A DNA stretch of 38,872 bases from Pseudomonadota bacterium (GTDB lineage: Bacteria; Verrucomicrobiota; Verrucomicrobiia; Limisphaerales; SXTU01): the NCBI GenBank assembly GCA_009924135.1, contig RFSE01000037.1, positions 1 to 38,872 on the forward strand, in the 5' to 3' direction. Numbering within the stretch: the first letter of the stretch is position 1; every line of letters starts with the position of its first letter. The notes beneath the pieces are model-generated. The model made no database searches and was not told the origin of the DNA. It saw only the letters and a program-made list of their open reading frames with translations. A program made the translations under genes and the position numbers. Positions 3,674 to 11,849 of this stretch are shown piece by piece.

Positions 3674-4225
3674 ATGCCCAACAGCGTCGATGCCAACTAC
3701 CGATTCATCGCGGCCTACCAGGAGGTCAATGCGCGCATCGTGCAACGCCAGCAGGCGCTTGCGCTCTACGTCACGCTGACGGTAAGTCTGCTGGCCGCAC
3801 TGGTCGCCCTGGGCACCTCAACCAAAGCGGCCACCGCACCCGTGGAATGGCTGGTGCTCGGGTTCCCCGTGTCGTCCCTCACGCTCGCCCTGCTCAACTA
3901 CACCTCGGAGCGTGCCATCAGCAATCTGCGCACCTTCCTGTCCACGCTCGAACGACTCAACAACGCCCACGAAACCCTGCCCAGCTACAACACGGACCCC
4001 CGGTGGGCAACGGGTGCCAACAAGGCCCGCCGCTTTCGCGACCTGGCAACTCTGCTGCTCGCCATCGCCGGAAATGTAATTGGCTTTGGTGCCGCCTGGC
4101 AGATCTATCCCCAGCGTCTGGCGGAATTCAAAGTGTTCTTGGTGATCGGGGTTGCGTTGGCGCTGACTTCGGTCTTCATCCTGCTGGCCACCCGCCGCTG
4201 GAGCTACGAACCAAGCCCCGCCTGA
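3674..4225 (+). CDS. Small multi-pass membrane protein of unknown function
   Basis: Starting at the ATG at 3674 the product has 183 residues; an earlier in-frame ATG at 3638 would add 12 polar residues. After a soluble N-terminal helix (about 30 residues) come two membrane helices (about residues 32-50 and 57-78), a charged cytosolic-type segment of about 55 residues rich in Asn, Arg and Thr, and two more helices (about 123-142 and 151-172). The 2+2 helix layout around a helical domain is seen in several bacterial membrane families, but no motif fixes one. It is followed on the same strand, after 122 bp, by a cyclase-like gene; the pair could be functionally linked, but that is inference. Confidence 0.7.
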   Translation: MPNSVDANYRFIAAYQEVNARIVQRQQALALYVTLTVSLLAALVALGTSTKAATAPVEWLVLGFPVSSLTLALLNYTSERAISNLRTFLSTLERLNNAHETLPSYNTDPRWATGANKARRFRDLATLLLAIAGNVIGFGAAWQIYPQRLAEFKVFLVIGVALALTSVFILLATRRWSYEPSPA

Positions 4226-4347
4226 CCCCACGCCCAAGCGGCGCGCAAACAGTGGCCGCTCAACGCGCTTGATAATGATCGCTGGTAGGGCGCAGGGGCC
4301 TCACCTCGCCATCGTAGTCTTACAATTTAAGTGACATAAACCACCTT

Positions 4348-4791
4348 GTGAATGCACAGCTCAAACGATTCATCGTCGTCAGTTTAAGTACCGCCGACTC
4401 CTCGGGCTACGATCGGCACACGATGCAGCAGCTTTTAAGGGTGGTAGAGCCTTCATCACCCGATACTCGATACGTGAACTATCTGGGCATGGCGGCATAC
4501 TTCCTTACTTCAGCGCAAACGTTTTCAGTAGTTGAGAGGCTCATTTCTGATCTTGAGAACCTGCGTGATACCGATTCGCAATTCGCGACGCTCAGAATCG
4601 GCTTGGCAGAGGGCGAGTTGATTGCTGACTTCGACGAAGCAGGCGTACTGAGAACCGAATCCATGTTGCCTCTCGGAGGAGCGGTCAATGAAGCAGCGTG
4701 GTGCGGCCGTGAGCCAAATAAATACAAAACCATTTTGCTGACCCTGCGAGAAAAGATTCTTCGTGAAGCCACTAAAACCTCGTCACGCTGA
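4348..4791 (+). CDS. Degenerate class III nucleotide-cyclase-like protein
   Basis: The protein has 147 residues with a GTG start. Landmarks of the cyclase homology domain can be aligned by eye: an N-terminal beta strand followed by ADSSGYD (compare FADISGFT), then YLGMAAYF (compare GDGxxxxF), RIGLAEGELI (compare RIGIHTGEV) and LGGAVNEAAW (compare GDAVNxAAR). The second metal-binding Asp is Met and the transition-state Arg is Trp, so catalysis by the usual mechanism is doubtful; it may bind a nucleotide or only keep the fold. Composition is AT-richer than neighbours, suggesting recent transfer. Its last 20 nt overlap the 3' end of the convergent yaeQ-like gene. The family assignment comes from motif resemblance only. 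Confidence 0.6.
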   Translation: MNAQLKRFIVVSLSTADSSGYDRHTMQQLLRVVEPSSPDTRYVNYLGMAAYFLTSAQTFSVVERLISDLENLRDTDSQFATLRIGLAEGELIADFDEAGVLRTESMLPLGGAVNEAAWCGREPNKYKTILLTLREKILREATKTSSR

Positions 4792-6926: not shown

Positions 6927-8321
6927 ATGCGAATCCACTTCCACGGCGCCACGCGCACCACCACCGGCTCGATGTACCTGCTGGAAGTCAATGGCCAGCG
7001 GCTGTTGCTGGAGTGCGGCCTCTACCAGGGCCGGCGCGATGAATCCATCACGCGCAACTGCTGCTTTCCCTTCGACCCGAAGACCATCGATGCCGCCGTC
7101 CTCAGCCACGCGCACATTGATCACTGCGGCAACTTCCCCAACCTCTGCAAACAGGGCTACGCCGGGAACATTTACTCGACCTTCGCCACGCGGGACCTCG
7201 CCAGCATCATGCTCGAGGATTCCGCGTCGATCCAGCAATCGGACGCGCAATTCGTCTCCCGGAAGCGCGCCAAACAGGGCAAGCCGCCCGTGCAGGCACT
7301 CTACACGGCCAGCGACGCCGAGCGCGCCGTCCGCCAGTTCGTGGCGATCAATTACGACCGGCCCATGCCCATTGCGGACGGCGTCACGCTGACTTTCCGC
7401 GACGCGGGGCACATCCTCGGCTCCGCGCAGGTCGTGCTGGACGTGCGGGAGGCCGGCCGCAAGTACCGATATCTCTTCAGCGGCGACATCGGTCGGCCCG
7501 GGCAGGACATTCTCCGCAGCGCCCAATCGGTCGAGAACGTGGACTTCCTGCAAATCGAGAGCACTTATGGCAACCGCATCCACTCCAGCCCCGTGGACGC
7601 CCGGGACGAGTTGTGCCAGCTCGTGGCTGACACGGTGAATCGCGGCGGCAAGGTCATCATCCCCGCCTTCTCCGTGGGCCGCACGCAGCAGATCGTTTAC
7701 GCCCTGCACCTGGCCACCGATGCCGGGAAACTGCCCAAGGTGCCGATCTACGTGGACAGCCCCTTGAGCGTGAACGCCACGGAGGTATTCCGTCTGCACC
7801 CTGAGTGCTTCGATGAAGCGACTTACACCTACCTGCGCGAGAAAGGCAACCCGTTCGGCATGGAGAATCTTACCTACATCCGCGAGCTGGCGCACTCGAT
7901 GAAGCTCAACGACCTGAAGGACGCCGCCGTCATCATCAGCGCGTCGGGCATGGCGGAAGCCGGCCGCGTGCTGCATCACCTGAAGAACCACGGGGGCGAC
8001 CCGACGAATCTGATTCTCTTTGTCGGCTACTGCGCGGAGCACACGCTGGGCGCGCAGATCCTGGCCGGCCGCAGCCCGGTGAACATTCTCGGTGAACCGC
8101 ACGCCATCCGTGCCCGCGTGGCAAAGATCGACGCCTTCTCCGGTCACGCGGACCGCAACGAACTTTCCGGCTACGTGAAATCGCTCACCGGCAACATCAA
8201 GAAGACCTTCGTCATCCACGGCGAAGAGGAGCAGTCGCTGGCGTTTGCCGAGACGCTGAAACACCTCCTGCCCCACTCCGAAGTCACCGTGCCGGTGCCA
8301 CACCAGGCGATCGAGGTGTGA
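6927..8321 (+). CDS. Metallo-beta-lactamase/beta-CASP RNA-processing nuclease
   Basis: The 464-residue protein is a full-length member of the CPSF73/Ysh1-like bacterial group, cytosolic exo/endonucleases acting on RNA. The metal motif HAHIDH occupies residues 61-66, the third motif His is in GHILGSA (161-167), and SGDIGR (185-190) supplies the bridging Asp187. The beta-CASP part follows, with DSPLS (278-282), ISASGMAEAGR (337-347) and the final SGHAD (405-409), whose His407 completes the two-zinc site. No signal peptide is present. The start codon ATG has no visible Shine-Dalgarno sequence. Exact substrate is not predictable. Confidence 0.95.
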   Translation: MRIHFHGATRTTTGSMYLLEVNGQRLLLECGLYQGRRDESITRNCCFPFDPKTIDAAVLSHAHIDHCGNFPNLCKQGYAGNIYSTFATRDLASIMLEDSASIQQSDAQFVSRKRAKQGKPPVQALYTASDAERAVRQFVAINYDRPMPIADGVTLTFRDAGHILGSAQVVLDVREAGRKYRYLFSGDIGRPGQDILRSAQSVENVDFLQIESTYGNRIHSSPVDARDELCQLVADTVNRGGKVIIPAFSVGRTQQIVYALHLATDAGKLPKVPIYVDSPLSVNATEVFRLHPECFDEATYTYLREKGNPFGMENLTYIRELAHSMKLNDLKDAAVIISASGMAEAGRVLHHLKNHGGDPTNLILFVGYCAEHTLGAQILAGRSPVNILGEPHAIRARVAKIDAFSGHADRNELSGYVKSLTGNIKKTFVIHGEEEQSLAFAETLKHLLPHSEVTVPVPHQAIEV

Positions 8322-8981: not shown

Positions 8982-9063
8982 GTAGCAGCCGACGTAAGGA
9001 GGCTCACTTCAATCGGAGGAAAAGCGCATAGCCAAATCAGCGCCTGCTCACGTCGGCAGCTAC
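8982..9063. repeat. GTAGCAGCC-type palindromic repeat, copy A
   Basis: The left arm GTAGCAGCCGACGTAAGGAG (from 8982) pairs imperfectly with the right arm ending CACGTCGGCAGCTAC (9063). The motif CCAAATCAG stands just before the right arm. The same layout occurs at 22574-22663. The stop codon of the NIL-domain gene (9060-9062) lies in the right arm. Confidence 0.8.
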
Positions 9064-9365
9064 GATTCCAGCACGCTGATCTCCACCGGCTCCACCTCGA
9101 TGCCGAGACCTTCGAGCCAGTTGATGGCGTTCTTGATCTCGGTGCGTGCGCCGTCGAGTTCCAGGCAGACGATGCCCATGTCCTTGCCCACGCTGACCTG
9201 CCGCAGGTTGAAGACGACCTTGAATTTCTGCCCCAGCTCCCAGATCACCGGCCGCGTGATCAGCGGCCCCGGGAACGTGAGCCAGAGCCGCGACTTGGAC
9301 TGGCGCGCGTCCGGTGGGAGCTTGGGTGCAGGTGGGCCGGCGGGTTTCTTTTTCGGTGAAGGCAT
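9060..9365 (-). CDS. NIL-domain protein, predicted homocysteine/methionine sulfur metabolism accessory
   Basis: The protein has 101 residues. After a Lys/Pro-rich N-terminal tail (1-23), residues about 25-98 form one NIL domain: RLWLTFPGPLITRPVIWELG, then the strand VVFNLRQV at the usual NIL position, followed by the GIVCLELDG strand and the NWLEGLGIEVE helix-strand. NIL domains occur at the C terminus of methionine ABC transporter ATPases (MetN) and in NIL-ferredoxins; in methanogens a NIL-ferredoxin has been linked to homocysteine synthesis. It is the most distal member of the group led by the SAM riboswitch, 50 bp after the DUF3592 gene. A sensor or sulfur-handling role in that pathway is inferred. 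Confidence 0.85.
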   Translation of the reverse strand: MPSPKKKPAGPPAPKLPPDARQSKSRLWLTFPGPLITRPVIWELGQKFKVVFNLRQVSVGKDMGIVCLELDGARTEIKNAINWLEGLGIEVEPVEISVLES

Positions 9366-9415
9366 GAGGGAGAATGGGGTCGAAATCGGCCAGTTGTCAA
9401 AACCAGCAATGCGCG

Positions 9416-9979
9416 CTAAGTCCAGGTTGCCCTAAGAGCCGAACAGATACGTGGCCAGAACGGTAAGACCTGACCAACAATCACAGCCAAACCTCCGAGG
9501 ATACCCGTGACAAAAGGCAATCCCCACACGTCTGGAAATCTGTCAATCTTAGCTTCCTTCGGATCATCAGGACGATAGAGCACCGGCACTTGGTCACCCA
9601 CGCGATTGGGGGCAGGTGAAGTGGCAACCGAAGCTGTAATGACGTGCTCATTTCCGAGCGTATCTCGGAACGTGAACCGAGGTGAAAAACGGGCAGCTCC
9701 CTCTCCGTCACGGCCCTTTTCGACTAATTCAACGATGGTCCCCGTGGTGCGAACCGACGTCATGACGAAATGCAATGCGTGAAGTGCAGTTCCGGCTGCC
9801 ACCAAGAGGCAGATGCCACCACCAAGGTTGAAATACAACGCAATGTCGGTCCAGTCCCGACGACAATTGTCAGAACGGGAGTCGCGCACCCCCTTCGAGT
9901 AACCTCTTGAGTAGCCAGCAATGAACCCGAACCAAGCACCAATCACCAGCATGAACACGATGAGAAACAGGATACCCAT
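9416..9979 (-). CDS. DUF3592 membrane protein
   Basis: A 187-residue protein with an N-terminal membrane helix (about 4-23), a second helix (about 48-70), a soluble beta domain (about 75-145) and a last hydrophobic helix (about 152-172). The middle segment with FTFRDTLGNEH and then VGDQVPVLYRPDDPKEAKID is typical of DUF3592, whose function is unknown. Codons are AT-richer than those of the surrounding threonine synthase, sulfur carrier and NIL genes, so it looks like a later insertion into the operon. Gaps to neighbours are 50 and 46 bp with no visible terminator, so it is probably co-transcribed. Confidence 0.8.
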   Translation of the reverse strand: MGILFLIVFMLVIGAWFGFIAGYSRGYSKGVRDSRSDNCRRDWTDIALYFNLGGGICLLVAAGTALHALHFVMTSVRTTGTIVELVEKGRDGEGAARFSPRFTFRDTLGNEHVITASVATSPAPNRVGDQVPVLYRPDDPKEAKIDRFPDVWGLPFVTGILGGLAVIVGQVLPFWPRICSALRATWT

Positions 9980-10025
9980 CGACGTGATTCTGAGAGACGC
10001 TACGGATCCCGCTCCCGATCAGCTT

Positions 10026-10301
10026 TTAGCCCCCCGCAATCGCCGGAATGATGCTGATCTCGTCGCCGTCCTTGAGGGGCGTGGCCTGGTTCTGGAGGAA
10101 GCGGATGTCCTCCTCGTTCACGTACACGTTCACGAAGCGGCGCACCTCGCCCTTGTCGTCGAGCAAGCGGTCCTTGATGCCGGGGTACTTGGCCTGCATT
10201 TCAGCGATGGCTGCGCCGACATTTGCGGCGGTGACGATGACGAGTTCCTCGCCGCCGGTGAGCTGGCGGAGCGGAGTGGGGATACGGACGTTGATGGGCA
10301 T
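10026..10301 (-). CDS. ThiS/MoaD-type sulfur carrier protein
   Basis: From the ATG at 10301 the protein has 91 residues; an upstream in-frame ATG at 10358 would add 19 residues encoded by a repeat and is rejected. It begins with the strand INVRIPTPLRQLTGG, continues through a helix (AAIAEMQAKYPGIKDRL) and ends with the strand ISIIPAIAGG. The C-terminal Gly-Gly is the site where an E1-like enzyme adenylates the carrier and a thiocarboxylate is then formed. No E1 (ThiF/MoeB) gene is in the window. Placement 87 bp behind a SAM-riboswitch-controlled PLP enzyme suggests sulfur donation to amino-acid synthesis and not to thiamine or molybdopterin. Confidence 0.9.
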   Translation of the reverse strand: MPINVRIPTPLRQLTGGEELVIVTAANVGAAIAEMQAKYPGIKDRLLDDKGEVRRFVNVYVNEEDIRFLQNQATPLKDGDEISIIPAIAGG

Positions 10302-10313
10302 AGATGGGGTGTT

Positions 10314-10380
10314 GGAGTAATGGAGTGGTGGAATGTTGGAGGCGGAACATGACTCCACCGCTCCATAACTCCAGCACTCC
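10314..10380. repeat. Inverted repeat with GGAGTNNTGG tandem units
   Basis: Units such as GGAGTAATGGAGTGGTGG (from 10314) pair with CTCCACCGCTCCATAACTCC (10353-10380) across a short loop. It fills the gap between the threonine-synthase-like gene and the sulfur carrier gene and may form an RNA hairpin inside the operon transcript. Confidence 0.6.
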
Positions 10381-10388
10381 GTTGGTTA

Positions 10389-11651
10389 TCAGGCAGGCAC
10401 AAGTTGCTTCTCTTCGTCCTTCAGCATGGCTTCGAACTCCCGCAGGCTCGGGCGGATCTCGCGGGTCTGGCCCACATGCCCGACGACGGCGTCGAGGGTC
10501 TTGAGGCCGTTGCCGGTGATGCAGAGGACGGCGGAATCGCCCGCCGGAATCTTGCCGGAGGCGATGAGCTTCTTCGCCACGCCCACGGTCACGCCGCCGG
10601 CGGTCTCGGCGAAGATGCCTTCGCACTCGGCCAGCAGACGGATGCCTTCGCGCACCTCGTCATCGGTCACATCGTCGGCATGGCCGGCGGTTTCCTTCAT
10701 CACCTTGAGCGCGTAGAAGCCGTCGGCAGGCGTGCCGATGGCGAGGCTCTTGGCGATGGTGTTGGGTTTCACGGGCTTGAAGAAGTCCATGCCGGCCTTC
10801 TCGGCGGAGCTGATGGGATTGCAGCCGGTCGCCTGCGCGCCGTGGATGTGCCACGAGCCGTCGGCCACGAGCCCGAGCTTGGCAAACTCCTGGTAGCTCT
10901 TGTGAATCTTCGTGAGCAACGACCCGCTGGCCATCGGCACCACGGTGTGCTGCGGCGTGCGCCAGCCGAGCTGCTCGCAAATCTCAAAGCCCATGCTCTT
11001 GCTGCCCTCGGCGTAGTAGGGGCGCATGTTTACATTCACGAAGGCCCAGCCGAACTTGCCGGCGATCTCCGCGCAGAGGCGGTTCACCTCATCGTAGTGG
11101 CCCTTGATGCTGATGACGTTCGCGCCGTACACGAGCGAGTTGACCACCTTGCCCTGCTCGAGATCGGAGGGGATGAAGACGTACGACTTGAGGCCGGCAG
11201 CGGCCGCGTTGGCCGCGACGGAGTTGGCCAGATTGCCGGTGGAGGCGCAGGCGACGGTCTTGAAGCCGAGTTCCCGCGAGCGGCTGAGCGCCACGCTGAC
11301 GACGCGGTCCTTGAAGGAGAGCGTGGGGTAGTTGACGGTATCGTTCTTCACCCACAGCTCGCGGATGCCGAGGCGCTTGGCGAGGCGGTCTGCCTTCACC
11401 AGCGGCGTGTAGCCGACCTGGAAGCCCACGGTCGGTTCGCCCGCGATGGGCAGCAGCTCGCGGTAGCGCCACATGGTGCGCGGGCGGGACTCGATGGCGG
11501 CGCGGGTGAGCGACTGCTTGATCCGGTCGTAGTCGTAGGCGACTTCGAGGGGGCCGAAATCGAACTCGCAAACGTGTGTGGCGCTGAGCGGATACTCCTT
11601 GCCGCACTCGCGGCACTTGAGCGCCTTCATGAAACCTTCGTGCTTGTCCAT
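10389..11651 (-). CDS. thrC: Threonine-synthase-like PLP enzyme under SAM riboswitch control
   Basis: From the ATG at 11651 the protein has 420 residues; an ATG at 11630 (MKALKCREC) is preceded by GAAGG at a good distance and may be the true start. Any start further upstream would lie inside the attenuator. An N-terminal zinc-ribbon-like part holds CRECG and a later HVCEFD, where a second Cys pair seems incomplete. The PLP lysine is in LSFKDR (Lys114 counting from 11651), followed by a Ser/Thr phosphate-binding region (CASTGNLANS) and a C-terminal GNGLKT motif. The fold-type II family turns O-phosphohomoserine into threonine. Because a SAM-I riboswitch, a sulfur carrier and a NIL protein surround it, an alternative product (homocysteine) deserves thought. 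Confidence 0.88.
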   Translation of the reverse strand: MDKHEGFMKALKCRECGKEYPLSATHVCEFDFGPLEVAYDYDRIKQSLTRAAIESRPRTMWRYRELLPIAGEPTVGFQVGYTPLVKADRLAKRLGIRELWVKNDTVNYPTLSFKDRVVSVALSRSRELGFKTVACASTGNLANSVAANAAAAGLKSYVFIPSDLEQGKVVNSLVYGANVISIKGHYDEVNRLCAEIAGKFGWAFVNVNMRPYYAEGSKSMGFEICEQLGWRTPQHTVVPMASGSLLTKIHKSYQEFAKLGLVADGSWHIHGAQATGCNPISSAEKAGMDFFKPVKPNTIAKSLAIGTPADGFYALKVMKETAGHADDVTDDEVREGIRLLAECEGIFAETAGGVTVGVAKKLIASGKIPAGDSAVLCITGNGLKTLDAVVGHVGQTREIRPSLREFEAMLKDEEKQLVPA

Positions 11652-11677
11652 ATATGTTTGTCTGCGTCCTTTCAGGG

Positions 11678-11714
11678 CAAACAAAAGCCCCGTCTCATCT
11701 GGATGAGAAGGGGC
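11678..11714 (-). terminator. Riboswitch attenuator terminator
   Basis: On the minus strand a hairpin with outer arms GCCCC/GGGGC and inner arms CTCATC/GATGAG (11714-11687) is followed by TTTTGTTTG (11686-11678). The 5' side of this hairpin, TTCTCATC (11709-11702), is perfectly complementary to GATGAGAA at 11739-11732, the 3' strand of riboswitch helix P1. That pairing is the antiterminator. When SAM holds P1 closed, the terminator forms. Confidence 0.9.
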
Positions 11715-11733
11715 CGGACAGGCGTGCGCTCTT

Positions 11734-11849
11734 CTCATCTTTCCCCCGGCCTTGCGGTCGGAGCTGGACTTGGCACCTGGTCGTTGCGGGACGCCCGCAA
11801 CCGGTTGCCGTGACGTCATCGGGCCAGTCCCTCAGTCACTCTGGATGAG
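11734..11849 (-). promoter_or_regulatory. SAM-I (S-box) riboswitch aptamer
   Basis: Read on the minus strand, the conserved S-box core is present in order: P1 5' strand CTCATC (11849-11844), then TGAGGGACTGGCCCGATGA with the kink-turn, GTGAC/GTCAC closing P2, CGGCAACC, a strong P3 (GTTGCGGG/CCCGCAAC), GGTGCCAAGTCC, a P4 hairpin, and the P1 3' strand GATGAG (11739-11734). All four helices form. With the downstream terminator and antiterminator this is a transcriptional OFF switch for the threonine-synthase-like/ThiS/NIL operon when S-adenosylmethionine is plentiful. Confidence 0.95.

Follow-up and report, generated by a model that had tools for sequence, protein, structure and literature searches.

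A SAM-I riboswitch operon with a putative MetM/MetO pair and a free-standing NIL gene in the Verrucomicrobiota

Operon layout and riboswitch

The window analyzed here is the whole 38,872-nucleotide contig RFSE01000037.1 (assembly GCA_009924135.1) of a bacterium that GTDB places in the order Limisphaerales of the phylum Verrucomicrobiota. On its reverse strand, a SAM-I (S-adenosylmethionine [SAM]) riboswitch precedes a pyridoxal phosphate (PLP) enzyme of the threonine synthase family, a small sulfur carrier, and a protein consisting of a NIL domain, an arrangement that recalls the enzyme MetM and the carrier MetO of Streptomyces. The operon and its downstream neighbor comprise the following features.

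11851-11732, (-): SAM-I (S-box) riboswitch aptamer (RF00162, E = 7.4e-16, scoring 74.6 bits where the gathering threshold is 44.4)
11715-11686, (-): intrinsic terminator of the riboswitch, a hairpin of -18.4 kcal/mol with a U-tract tail, TTTGTTTG
11651-10389, (-): MetM-type enzyme of the threonine synthase family, PLP dependent, 420 amino acids (PALP, E = 8.5e-68)
10301-10026, (-): MetO-type sulfur carrier, 91 amino acids, C-terminal Gly-Gly (ThiS PF02597, E = 3.2e-19)
9979-9416, (-): DUF3592 gene between carrier and NIL (PF12158, E = 5.1e-9)
9365-9060, (-): free-standing NIL protein, 101 amino acids (PF09383, E = 4.7e-11)
8976-8542, (-): DUF309 gene (PF03745)

The original prediction, made from the sequence alone, had described a SAM-I riboswitch with its attenuator ahead of a ThrC-like PLP enzyme, a Gly-Gly carrier, a DUF3592 gene, and a NIL gene, all on one strand; the RF00162 score and the terminator hairpin bear out the former, and Pfam matches were obtained for all four genes. 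The 5' arm of the terminator is complementary over 8 nucleotides to the 3' strand of P1 (GAUGAGAA), giving a putative antiterminator in a permissive search run without a shuffle control. SAM-I switches that turn expression off are commonly built in this way. The window leader folds better than 200 of 200 shuffles (z = -3.40). By a permissive folding rule, again without a shuffle control, terminator-like hairpins are present in all 21 leaders from the order (the window and L051-L070) and in 26 of the 29 leaders overall. No such hairpin is seen by this rule in L156-L158, and those of L162-L165 are weak, at -7.8 to -9.8 kcal/mol. A simple promoter/terminator scan of the window missed the riboswitch terminator, which is known from the leader folding, and returned no promoters; its one terminator-like site, at 11997-11976 (-), lies upstream of the riboswitch and is fewer than in shuffles (mean, 3.4).

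The longest open reading frame (ORF) for the enzyme, 476 amino acids from 11819, reaches upstream into the riboswitch, and we took the start at 11651 because the 420-residue form fits the relatives. At the other end, the operon may continue into the DUF309 gene. A convergent gene for a Beta-CASP/RMMBL metallo-beta-lactamase RNase-like protein adjoins the operon (6927-8321, +).

A threonine synthase relative paired with a sulfur carrier

By standard models the window enzyme is a threonine synthase, scoring 274.9 bits with TIGR00260 (cut-off, 167.1), as a Streptomyces relative (L112) likewise does, and 287.8 bits with PRK08197, below the cut-off of 303. It matches threonine synthases with an E value of 4.5e-54, compared to 1.4e-7 for cysteine synthase B, and Lys 114, within an SFKDR motif, is presumably the PLP lysine. 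Because it scores above the TIGR00260 cut-off, automatic annotation would probably label MetM as threonine synthase, and such bacteria could be misread as methionine auxotrophs.

To place the enzyme we used 112 related loci, namely, 20 from the window's order, 11 from elsewhere in the phylum, and 81 from Actinobacteria, the last being L071 plus the best 80 of at least 585 confirmed matches (many of the 80 from Streptomyces) to an alignment with a Nonomuraea relative at its head. Identity between the window and the 80 named actinobacterial relatives is 52 to 57% for the enzyme and 46 to 54% for the carrier. A maximum-likelihood tree was built from the window, 8 of the 20 order loci, all 11 other loci of the phylum, 12 of the 81 actinobacterial loci, and 15 ThrC rows. 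The 32 MetM rows, from both phyla, fall on one side of a branch with 100/100 support, opposite the 15 rows labeled ThrC, labels that were assigned in this analysis from low identity and that include several long branches. The alignment of these rows has 27 positions at which the residue is constant in at least 31 of the 32 MetM rows and rare in ThrC (at most 1 row).

The enzyme does not travel alone. A carrier gene lies near metM in all 112 loci (20/20, 11/11, and 81/81), and in 80 of 80 named actinobacterial loci it starts 15 to 170 bases behind the enzyme gene. The SAM-I riboswitch is present in 20/20 order loci, in 8/11 loci from elsewhere in the phylum, and in all 17 actinobacterial loci checked (16 of the 80 named ones and Nonomuraea gerenzanensis). 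DUF309 occurs in 7 of the 20 order loci, all from the same genus as the window, and is absent from the other 13. DUF3592 had been listed within the operon in the original prediction; with no match in the 20 order loci or anywhere among the 112, it is ruled out as a pathway member, and the gene is probably a later insertion. Within this genus the stretch separating carrier from NIL is occupied by genes unrelated to each other: the window has DUF3592 there (9416-9979), and L052 has an ORF of 134 residues that matches nothing in Pfam (1783-2187).

The carrier itself scores 62.2 bits with the SAMP1 model NF041918 (cut-off, 60). Whereas the window carrier ends in a plain GG, 12 of 114 carrier hits, all actinobacterial (e.g., L108, L127, and L153), end in GGC; GGA and GGAR were seen once each, and the L159 carrier (4188-4481) has a longer C-terminal tail. 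Carriers without a plain GG end would presumably have to be cut back by a protease.

Two loci have a tandem pair of carrier genes behind metM (L060, 2342-4523; L069, 3209-5347). In two others, further genes intervene between enzyme and carrier: nucleotidyltransferase and HEPN/HepT-like genes in L061 (G149:C10:29000-37000) and other small ORFs in L062 (G130:C30:160000-169000). Both also contain repeated pieces matching the first 26 to 35 residues of MetO, a pattern that might be left by insertions duplicating the start of metO.

Homocysteine synthesis in the genome and across the order

The window genome, 90.45% complete at 6.68 Mb in 490 contigs, contains a single further ThrC-type match, which shares 32% identity with the window enzyme and scores 592 bits with PRK08197 (cut-off, 303). 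This is the second thrC, without a riboswitch, that the original prediction had looked to; in a whole-genome search the single RF00162 match is the one ahead of the MetM-type gene. Also in keeping with that prediction, no full-length enzyme of the MetB/MetC/MetY family (PF01053) was found, the best match being partial at 34 bits, in a search that did not extend to MetX. The three PF01053 matches above cut-off were ruled out as DegT or class I/II aminotransferases, and four weaker ones were not examined. The DUF39/HcyBio enzyme had no match in the window genome, while a control search found DUF39 in 3 of 14 genomes.

Five ThiS-family carriers are encoded in the genome, including that of the window. 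One adjoins thiG and another adjoins moaE, indicating that thiamine and molybdopterin have carriers of their own, contrary to the proviso that the window carrier might serve either pathway. Three ThiF-family matches supply the anticipated E1 enzymes: one is a MoeB-rhodanese fusion, and L049, cut by a contig end, was left unclassified. The JAMM protease that had been expected alongside did not materialize, as the PF14464 match above cut-off is RadC, not Mec; a weaker match below cut-off (L074) was not examined.

If the MetM-type enzyme replaces the classical route, the two should tend to exclude each other, and this prediction was examined in 196 sampled genomes of the window's order. MetM was scored as present at 75% identity or more, which includes one 330-base fragment at a contig end (G111), and is found in 135 genomes. 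PF01053 was called strong at a best E value of 1e-36 or lower, as at E = 0.001 all 196 genomes and 14 of 14 controls match, which is uninformative. Strong PF01053 enzymes occur in 36 of the 135 genomes with MetM compared to 47 of the 61 without it (Fisher P = 4e-11; P = 9e-12 when five genomes with weaker matches are left out). The avoidance holds among 111 high-quality genomes (18/83 versus 24/28; P = 2e-9) and when each of 60 families is represented by a single genome (6/38 versus 16/22; P = 2e-5), although the tests treat genomes as independent and the one-per-family version only lessens the effect of kinship. In a wider draw of 288 genomes from the phylum, MetM was found in 12, that of the window and 11 outside its order at 62 to 74% identity.

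Taken with the operon itself, these results lead us to conclude that the locus very probably encodes a MetM/MetO route to homocysteine, and hence to methionine, with a methionine sensor-like NIL protein as its third gene. The anatomy of the operon, the orthology and synteny of enzyme and carrier, the avoidance of MetB/C/Y-family enzymes, and the fact that no other route was found in the 90%-complete genome with the families searched carry this conclusion; the chemistry would be that of Streptomyces, and the pairing with E1, the binding of SAM, and the role of NIL are suggested by analogy. In Streptomyces, MetM reportedly makes homocysteine from MetO thiocarboxylate and O-phosphohomoserine. That a ThrC-like enzyme might join O-phosphohomoserine with carrier-bound sulfide had been put forward in the original prediction, and both the grouping with actinobacterial MetM and the genome context, as read from sequence, support it.

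In the proposed mechanism, the C-terminal Gly-Gly of MetO would be adenylated by a MoeB-type E1 and thiocarboxylated, perhaps via the rhodanese domain of the E1. MetM would then combine the MetO sulfur with O-phospho-L-homoserine from the threonine pathway to give homocysteine, in place of the classical route through MetX/MetY or MetB/MetC. At high SAM levels the riboswitch would fold, freeing the terminator and stopping transcription of the operon, and NIL, upon binding methionine, might act on MetM or MetO as a second brake at the protein level.

The pathway is not new in itself, contrary to what the original prediction had supposed: an excerpt of PMC12172450, citing Hasebe et al. 2024 (doi 10.1128/aem.01247-24), describes MetM as a novel homocysteine synthase and mentions the SAM riboswitch of Streptomyces albulus metM as well as metO. 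The window shares with that system the ThrC-like PLP enzyme, the carrier, the SAM riboswitch, and a single tree group. What is new here is the NIL component and the commonness of MetM/MetO in an order of a second phylum, such that a Streptomyces route of 2024 is apparently a common homocysteine route in a distant lineage. Among the literature matches listed, there was no account of MetM beyond PMC12172450 and none of a SAM riboswitch with threonine synthase or in this phylum; T-box control of thrC is described in an excerpt of PMC12452182.

Several points weigh against this conclusion. The Streptomyces rows were called MetM by genus, riboswitch, and carrier rather than by comparison with the MetM sequence of S. 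albulus. The genome is incomplete, and the search for other routes did not cover MetX, MetE, or MetH. Strong PF01053 enzymes coexist with MetM in the 36 genomes noted above, and four high-quality genomes of the order (G002, G004, G030, and G094) have neither. Should a MetO-homocysteine amide form, release of the carrier is unexplained, since a dedicated JAMM protease was not seen. No homoserine kinase was found in the genome with the two families used, TIGR00191 and TIGR02535, so that the supply of O-phosphohomoserine is only presumed; the TIGR00191 match is IspE, and the TIGR02535 match was rejected as ApgM, a phosphoglycerate mutase above the PRK04135 cut-off. An unlisted kinase is likely because ThrC needs the same substrate, and an excerpt of PMC5764234 states that unknown homoserine kinases seem to be present in other bacteria. 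Finally, a Microcystis homologue that is 51.6% identical to MetM and lies beside a metO-like gene made threonine and deaminated threonine in vitro, while with sulfide it gave only an unidentified peak near methionine, according to the part of PMC12172450 that describes it.

The Microcystis activities, together with the TIGR00260 score, are what might favor a rival reading, in which the enzyme is a plain threonine synthase or a bifunctional synthase/deaminase, SAM adjusts its expression where the threonine and methionine pathways part, and the carrier belongs to some other pathway. We consider this improbable. A better-scoring ThrC is encoded elsewhere in the genome, the carrier stays with the enzyme in 112/112 loci although thiG- and moaE-side carriers exist, avoidance of MetB/C/Y-family enzymes would be unexpected of a threonine enzyme, and the 27 MetM positions are rare in ThrC.

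In the CysM/CysO/Mec system of Mycobacterium, too, a carrier delivers sulfur to a PLP enzyme of fold type II whose substrate is a phosphorylated amino acid, and the best solved relative of the window carrier, 3dwg_C (E = 8.5e-24, listed as antigen cfp10A), is one that we take to be M. tuberculosis CysO. A system of this kind, making cysteine from O-phosphoserine, is nevertheless highly improbable here, given an enzyme so much nearer to threonine synthase than to cysteine synthase B, control by a SAM sensor, and a search for a CysO-type JAMM protease that gave only RadC above cut-off. The HcyS/HcyD route of Wolinella, which relies on a protease and on a MetY-type enzyme of fold type I, resembles the MetM/MetO route in taking sulfur for homocysteine from a carrier thiocarboxylate; in contrast, the window enzyme is of the ThrC type, and MetY was not found in its genome.

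The NIL protein as a third gene

NIL is found in 19 of the 20 order loci and in 7 of the 11 loci from elsewhere in the phylum; its lack in the remaining order locus, L061, is uninformative, as that stretch stops shortly past the carrier. It was not found in any of the 81 actinobacterial loci, some of which reach a contig end within 3.5 kb, where a more distant NIL could be missed. As far as sampled, with cyanobacteria and other phyla not reached, NIL is thus a lineage-specific third gene that sets these operons apart from Streptomyces MetM/MetO.

The nearest solved relatives of NIL by sequence are C-terminal C2 domains of the methionine importer ATPase MetN, a weak match (best E = 0.011). The predicted structure has a mean predicted local distance difference test (pLDDT) score of 83.7, with 71 of 101 residues at 90 or above, and in a Foldseek search it returned MetN as the best match (probability 1.00, E = 4.7e-5), with 3dhx, the C2 domain on its own, at E = 1e-3. 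Asn53 of NIL aligns with MetN Asn295, in an alignment drawn from the weak sequence match, and this Asn is kept in 26 of 27 NIL proteins, L156 having Ser. In MetNI, N295A raises the Ki for L-Met 28-fold, according to an excerpt of PMC12357092. NIL thus resembles the MetN C2 domain in predicted fold and in the Asn needed for methionine binding, while differing in being a separate protein beside a biosynthetic enzyme, without fusion to an ABC ATPase.

From sequence and model, we favor NIL as a candidate methionine sensor acting on MetM or MetO in protein-level feedback. A more specific version, which we offer tentatively and hold somewhat short of an even chance, is that the pathway in this phylum gained a dedicated free-standing sensor, one that would bind methionine in the manner of the MetN C2 domain and directly shut down MetM or MetO. 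If so, the operon would be controlled twice, by SAM at transcription through the riboswitch and by methionine at the protein through NIL. The idea of a methionine-sensing protein encoded within a biosynthetic operon is one that lends itself to direct testing. No account of a link among NIL, threonine synthase, and a carrier was found in the literature matches listed.

NIL may instead take part directly in transferring or reducing sulfur, like the NIL-ferredoxin protein of the DUF39 route, a role that would be compatible with the MetM/MetO route but that we regard as unlikely. According to an excerpt of PMC5764234, Desulfovibrio needs NIL/ferredoxin to make homocysteine, so that a NIL domain is tied to homocysteine in both cases, and NIL accompanies MetO in 26 of 31 relatives within the phylum. 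The window genome, however, lacks a DUF39 match, and its NIL protein matched only the NIL domain in Pfam, with no ferredoxin domain; the 20 NIL proteins compared have no invariant cysteine in common. The domain and cysteine results rule out the methanogen-type NIL-ferredoxin to which the original prediction had likened it. Enzyme and carrier also occur without a nearby NIL in all 81 actinobacterial and 4 of 11 other phylum loci, and the near-invariant Asn argues for methionine binding instead.

Two single-contig genomes of 0.92 Mb, small and probably reduced (L160 in G252 and L161 in G231), keep MetM and its carrier without riboswitch or NIL. Absence of both is as expected if riboswitch and NIL are regulatory. 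The evidence is weak, since the two do not always go together: L157 and L159 carry the riboswitch but not NIL, and L166 carries NIL but no riboswitch. From these two loci, the MetM/MetO route may be retained in host-dependent lineages.

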